From Pyrocephalus nanus (lineage: Eukaryota > Chordata > Aves > Passeriformes > Tyrannidae): 64,000 bases of DNA. The DNA lies in assembly GCA_038380795.1 (NCBI GenBank), contig CM076280.1:3583501-3647500 (forward strand), read 5' to 3'. Under the pieces are notes generated by a model that saw only the letters and a list, made by a program, of their open reading frames with translations, made no database searches and was not told the origin of the DNA. Below are positions 36,714-36,749 of the stretch, in pieces. Both the position numbers and the translations under genes were made by a program. How positions within the stretch are numbered: the stretch's first letter is position 1; every line of letters starts with the position of its first letter.

Positions 36714-36749
36714 AGGAGCAAAGCACGGTCGCCCGGGAGTTACCTGGCA
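36714..36749 (+). CDS. CACNA1B: candidate CACNA1B microexon (CACNA1A exon-44-like)
   Basis: This 36-bp candidate exon is phase 0 at both ends and lies between exons 43 and 44. Its acceptor is ccgaattgtttgcag and its donor is GCA|gtatgt. It encodes the 12 residues RSKARSPGSYLA. The paralogue CACNA1A has an alternatively used 36-nt exon 44 (12 residues, also Arg-rich) at exactly the same place, between the conserved AExQ and xDTSPMKR blocks. Upstream lies a long pyrimidine-rich stretch typical of regulated microexons. If spliced in, it would insert a basic, Ser-Pro-containing segment into the tail. If unspliced, the frame stops six codons later. Usage in RNA cannot be shown from DNA. Confidence 0.72.

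Follow-up and report, generated by a model that had tools for sequence, protein, structure and literature searches.

A putative optional 36-nt cassette exon in the CACNA1B tail of Pyrocephalus nanus and its counterpart in CACNA1A

CaV2.2, one of the main presynaptic channels, is a target of pain drugs, and most work on it has been done in rodents and humans. The 3' part of its gene, CACNA1B, lies on the + strand of the window (the whole 64-kb stretch of DNA analysed), with the final exon at 42478-43011. The final exon is 100% identical to the Myiozetetes cayanensis record P0001. Between two coding exons of the C-terminal tail lies an open segment of 36 nt. The question is whether this segment is an optional exon or a chance arrangement of splice-like sites, and whether it shares descent with exon 44 of the sister gene CACNA1A.

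The segment, its junctions and its splice signals

The segment had been described beforehand as a phase-0 unit between two phase-0 CACNA1B exons. Sequence, coordinates, frame and both junctions agree with this (Table 1). The surrounding introns are 2,208 nt (upstream) and 2,157 nt (downstream) in length. The acceptor reads ..ttgtttgcag and ends at 36713; the donor, gtatgt, starts at 36750. Compared with the 1.07-Gb assembly of the same bird, the stretch 36600-36860 has at least one match, the locus itself. The window occupies C22:3583501-3647500 of that assembly.

Table 1. Features at the cassette junction of CACNA1B, in window coordinates
Feature	Sequence	Position	Strand	Remarks
CACNA1B coding exon 5' of the cassette	VVEMREISPTVANGEPQPGLESQGRAASMPRLAAETQ	34395..34505	+	phase 0 end; sequence, tblastn (P0001, P0124); donor 6.62 bits
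AG-free stretch before the cassette acceptor		36437..36711	+	275 nt; third longest on the + strand
Candidate distant branch site	TTCTAAC	36441..36447	+	predicted; A at 36446, 268 nt 5' of the exon
Cassette 3' splice site		36694..36713	+	weight-matrix score 3.57 bits
Putative 36-nt cassette exon	RSKARSPGSYLA	36714..36749	+	phase 0/0; 12-residue version in 69/271 proteins
Weak cassette 5' splice site	GCA/GTATGT	36750..36755	+	weight-matrix score -0.59 bits
CACNA1B coding exon 3' of the cassette	PIPDTSPMKRSVSTL...	38907..39114	+	phase 0 start; tblastn; acceptor 4.07 bits; donor at 39115

The donor is weak. It had been called consensus, which is overstated, because it deviates at -1 and +4. Splice sites were scored with simple weight matrices made for this analysis, taking for each exon the best site at most 14 nt from the tblastn end. 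The cassette donor has the lowest score among the 14 donors scored (16 exons minus the terminal exon and one with a mis-placed end). Open segments of 15-60 nt were counted where the length is a multiple of three and neither site scores below that of the cassette. The + strand of the 64 kb has 16 of them, one being the cassette itself, and the - strand has 10, which leaves 25 others on the two strands. The host intron contains two segments of equal splice quality, the cassette counted. Segments of exactly 36 nt and equal splice quality occur once per strand, and the one on the + strand is the cassette. The 7+36+6 pattern has a single match in the window and none in 100 shuffles; it was derived from the site itself and is therefore an unfair test of chance. 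By themselves, the splice signals of the cassette are near chance level. Splice-site strength is ruled out as proof of the exon, since equally good segments occur by chance in the window; it is the protein comparison that shows the exon to be real.

The two + strand AG-free stretches longer than that of the cassette both lie in pyrimidine simple-repeat tracts. AG-free zones of at least 150 nt occur at 3 of the 15 other acceptors measured (two of the 16 acceptors in all were assigned to doubtful positions, where the zone is 3 nt), and the zone of the cassette is not specific. Long AG-free zones appear to be frequent in CACNA1B. Directly 5' of the exon at 12116 stands a long pyrimidine simple-repeat tract (11632-12114), with an AG-free zone of 480 nt; the zones of two other exons of the gene measure 204 nt (31256-31462) and 178 nt (42296-42476). 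The branch-site matrix, likewise made here, gives 36651 and 36692 as the next-best predicted branch-site As. Long AG-free zones have been linked to alternative exons, and a verified distant branch point is given at -275 in GABBR1 (PMC1431707, in part). At CACNA1A exon 44 the AG-free zone measures 81 nt, against 275 nt at the CACNA1B cassette, so the two exons do not have a long zone in common. The distant branch point is a lead only, because long zones are common in the gene and the CACNA1A exon is without one.

RNA structure around the cassette is unremarkable, with a z of +1.31 and folds as good or better in 181 of 200 shuffles, Rfam has no match within 34000-40000, and none of the Rbfox, Nova, CELF and PTB motif counts around the cassette is outstanding. 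Upstream CU content is marginal (2.6% of random stretches reach it, uncorrected for multiple tests). The 300 nt upstream contain 11 UGC, likewise a marginal count and only a hint of dependence on nSR100 (SRRM4), reached by 5.7% of 3,000 random gene-region stretches and also uncorrected.

Distribution among vertebrates

The protein comparison comprises 271 proteins from the matches listed, two of them labelled P/Q-type; the first search contributed the best 120 of 981 matches and two later searches all matches at E 0.001 (100 and 111). Among these listed matches, 69 of the 271 proteins have a 12-residue version at the junction, and 47 of the 271 are identical to the window. Carriers of the 12-residue version are birds (chicken and ostrich included), crocodilians, turtles, snakes, lizards, tuatara, wallaby, axolotl, coelacanth, paddlefish and gars. 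The residues are identical to the window in records that include crocodilians and axolotl; coelacanth and paddlefish agree at 11 of 12. Eight teleost records have a 13-residue form, with one extra codon and the frame kept (counted by eye). The skate CACNA1B record has a diverged form. The tegu Salvator merianae (P0160) has RSKAGSPRPYQA, 8/12 identical to the window, a change that possibly reflects relaxed constraint. The expectation that other birds would keep the reading frame is borne out by these predicted proteins. The statement that this bird has kept the cassette stands, but is too narrow: many sampled non-placental lineages carry it.

Use of the cassette differs among records. Within the best 120 of 981 matches, the cassette is present in 23 and skipped in 76. 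Skipping records include some teleosts, a sturgeon and the top match of the first search, P0001. Nine species have database models both with and without the cassette, although one or two of these cases are different subspecies entries. The cassette is already in public databases as predicted isoforms; many of these entries come from automatic or homology-based gene prediction, which does not in itself prove inclusion in transcripts. In 19 of 20 chosen species (Latimeria, to which the pattern did not fit, is dropped) the cassette has a mean pairwise identity of 76%. The immediate flanks are higher, at 94% and 92%; the more distant tail has 42% (44 residues upstream) and 60% (30 residues downstream), ungapped.

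Eutherian records (n = 47) join the flanking exons directly in 34 cases and have no clean junction in 13. The cassette occurs in 0 of the 47 among the proteins examined, where representatives of 90% clusters may conceal members; one search reaches only proteins of at most about 2,147 residues, which excludes full-length eutherian channels, and the search able to reach these returned none, but it also returned skip forms for no species at all. Human CACNA1B (PDB 7mix) has a gap of exactly these 12 residues, as the preliminary description had said of the usual human protein, whose flanks are joined directly. Records of two further marsupials and of platypus are without a clean junction. Since the wallaby carries the cassette and the eutherian records do not, loss on the placental branch is apparently the simplest reading. 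Because the cassette is not found in the placental records examined, work on human and mouse has probably never met it.

The counterpart in CACNA1A and the role of the insert

The presynaptic C-terminal tail is probably disordered. In the same genome, CACNA1A contains a 36-nt phase 0/0 exon, RRKVRPRGNNLS, at C45:283017-283052, between SMPRLPADPQ and TIADSSPMKRS. This confirms the presence, at the same junction, of a basic 36-nt exon 44, as stated beforehand. Human CACNA1A (8x90) aligns across the cassette with no gap, human exon 44 being RRRGRPRGNNLS; the exon is kept in human, unlike the CACNA1B cassette. In both genes the junction follows SMPRL plus five residues and precedes xxxDxSPMKRS (human; CACNA1A of this genome). 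Length (36 nt), phase (0/0), the basic 12-residue insert and the junction in the C-terminal tail are common to the two exons. The peptide of the CACNA1A exon equals chick CaV2.1 exon 44 letter for letter (PMC5958201). Chick exon 44 is an alternatively spliced vesicle-binding site, earlier described in mammals (PMC5958201, in part).

The two inserts differ in their motifs. CACNA1A exon 44 has five basic residues, against three in the CACNA1B cassette (by eye), and has an RRxxR vesicle motif, which the cassette is without. The +(+)xRR vesicle motif, read in either direction, is present in chick CaV2.1 exon 44 and absent from the cassette of the window and its flanks; no RR pair occurs in the 14 cassette versions compared (by eye). 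The vesicle motif is a trait of the function of the CaV2.1 version, not of the descent of the exon. The RR motif being absent, the function of the cassette need not match that of CaV2.1 exon 44.

The cassette could nevertheless act just like CaV2.1 exon 44, as a synaptic-vesicle capture site. Its tail position is that of exon 44; a chick CaV2.1 fusion protein without exon 44 caught 62-66% as much vesicle marker (PMC5958201, in part); and antibody work pointed to a vesicle site in the middle of the chick CaV2.2 tail, near RPHPMHLYEYSLER (PMC5371611), an epitope that starts 18 residues past the cassette in chicken P0077. However, the RR pair is essential in blocking peptides (PMC4899477), and the constitutive tail carries RCHRR, which could be the mid-tail site instead. 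A like-for-like vesicle role is unlikely, because the RR motif is absent.

A Ser/Thr-Pro pair occurs in 13 of the 14 versions compared (by eye); the tuatara has Pro-Pro. The 13-residue forms of the teleosts Stegastes, Salvelinus and Scleropages are without it, and skate has Ser-Ser (by eye). A Cdk5 site, S2013, is listed for CaV2.2 in a review (PMC8609871, in part). It is presumably the serine of SPMKR (2016 by human PDB alignment count). Tentatively, CACNA1A may have kept the exon as a vesicle-binding module, and CACNA1B may have made of it a Ser/Thr-Pro switch beside the SPMKR phosphosite, later lost in placentals.

Descent, relations and significance

The cassette and RRKVRPRGNNLS share 5 of 12 residues and 20 of 36 bases, and their adjoining 20 intron bases agree at only 5 and 8 positions. 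The ungapped similarity to chick-type exon 44 is equalled by 202 of 200,000 shuffles, which is modest alone; human exon 44 is identical at 4/12, with 759 of 200,000 shuffles as high. These low identities are what would be expected had CACNA1A and CACNA1B each gained a small basic cassette independently, the exon being real. Against such convergence stand the codon boundary, length and phase, all alike in the two genes, the few shuffles that reach the ungapped match, and the presence of the CACNA1B cassette in skate, ray-finned and lobe-finned lineages; it is judged improbable. A gain twice at one codon boundary would be much less likely than a single exon before the gene split, for which the like boundary, phase and length argue. 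The exon would be older than the split because the CACNA1B insert spans skate and ray-finned fish to wallaby, in a comparison that covered CACNA1B and CACNA1A of jawed vertebrates. The origin in a Cav2 ancestor proposed beforehand is supported by the CACNA1A exon of this genome together with that insert, as is the wider view of an ancient Cav2 cassette that many lineages have retained. Very improbable is a chance pseudo-exon, an open 36 nt between fortuitous splice-like sites and never spliced in: the weak donor and the equally good segments elsewhere in the window would suit it, and the conservation of identical residues as far as crocodilians and axolotl, and nearly so in coelacanth and paddlefish, with the matching exon in the paralogue, in effect refutes it.

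The preferred reading is thus that CACNA1B has a real, optional cassette exon that is homologous to exon 44 of CACNA1A. That such an exon exists and shares this homology is near certain; with optional use added, the whole is highly probable. A Cav2 gene ancestral to both channels would have carried the cassette, CACNA1B of many jawed-vertebrate groups would have kept it, and placental mammals apparently lost it. Neurons would include it in some transcripts via suboptimal splice sites (the weak donor, possibly the distant branch point). Inclusion would put 12 basic, Ser-Pro-bearing residues into the presynaptic C-terminal tail, directly before the SPMKR site, where the insert might tune the interactions of the tail, such as its phosphorylation or its binding to vesicles or the active zone.

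Further alternative sequence occurs in the gene. Mutually exclusive exons are both present in the window, RIHYKDMYNLLRV at 16522-16617 and then RISYTDMYEMLRHM at about 18960-19050, presumably 37a-like and 37b-like, respectively. At the cassette junction, the upstream exon has an in-frame extension past AETQ (VSEGDFTGSGRLR-like) in models of eagle, falcon, penguin, turtles and geckos, and 34506-34550 of the window reads VSRGDLTAGGGQELR ahead of gtcttc; this suggests a second alternative donor. A similar CACNA1A extension, AENQ-VRGYFFEPSRDST-TITDASPMKRS, is found at the same junction in Gopherus agassizii P0269 and P0270 (labelled P/Q-type).

A common cut-off for neural microexons is 27 nt, and the cassette, at 36 nt, is above it. 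Like the cassette, they are short, frame-preserving and found in neuronal genes, but generally measure 9-21 nt (PMC7235277, in part). CACNA1B e18a is, like the cassette, an optional exon of the same gene and a regulated cassette (PMC5633781, in part); it sits in the II-III loop, whereas the cassette is in the mid C-terminal tail. The e37a/e37b exons belong to the same gene, but are a mutually exclusive pair (PMC7235277, in part). Both e18a and e37a/e37b are known from mouse, rat and human, unlike the cassette, which is not found in the eutherian records examined. No paper describing the cassette was found in a search that included peptide strings, which is weak evidence, the search covering openly licensed literature only. 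A conserved tail exon missing from human and rodents would explain this silence.

The cassette thus appears to be an optional exon common to vertebrates from skate to wallaby and to the sister gene CACNA1A. One cassette would have survived in two paralogues, and one mammal branch apparently lost one copy. Chick synapses, known for studies of vesicle binding by the CaV2.2 tail (PMC4899477, PMC5371611), should express two tail forms. If CACNA1B did make of the exon a Ser/Thr-Pro switch that placentals later lost, the N-type channels of birds, reptiles and marsupials would have a presynaptic control that is absent from those of human and rodents.
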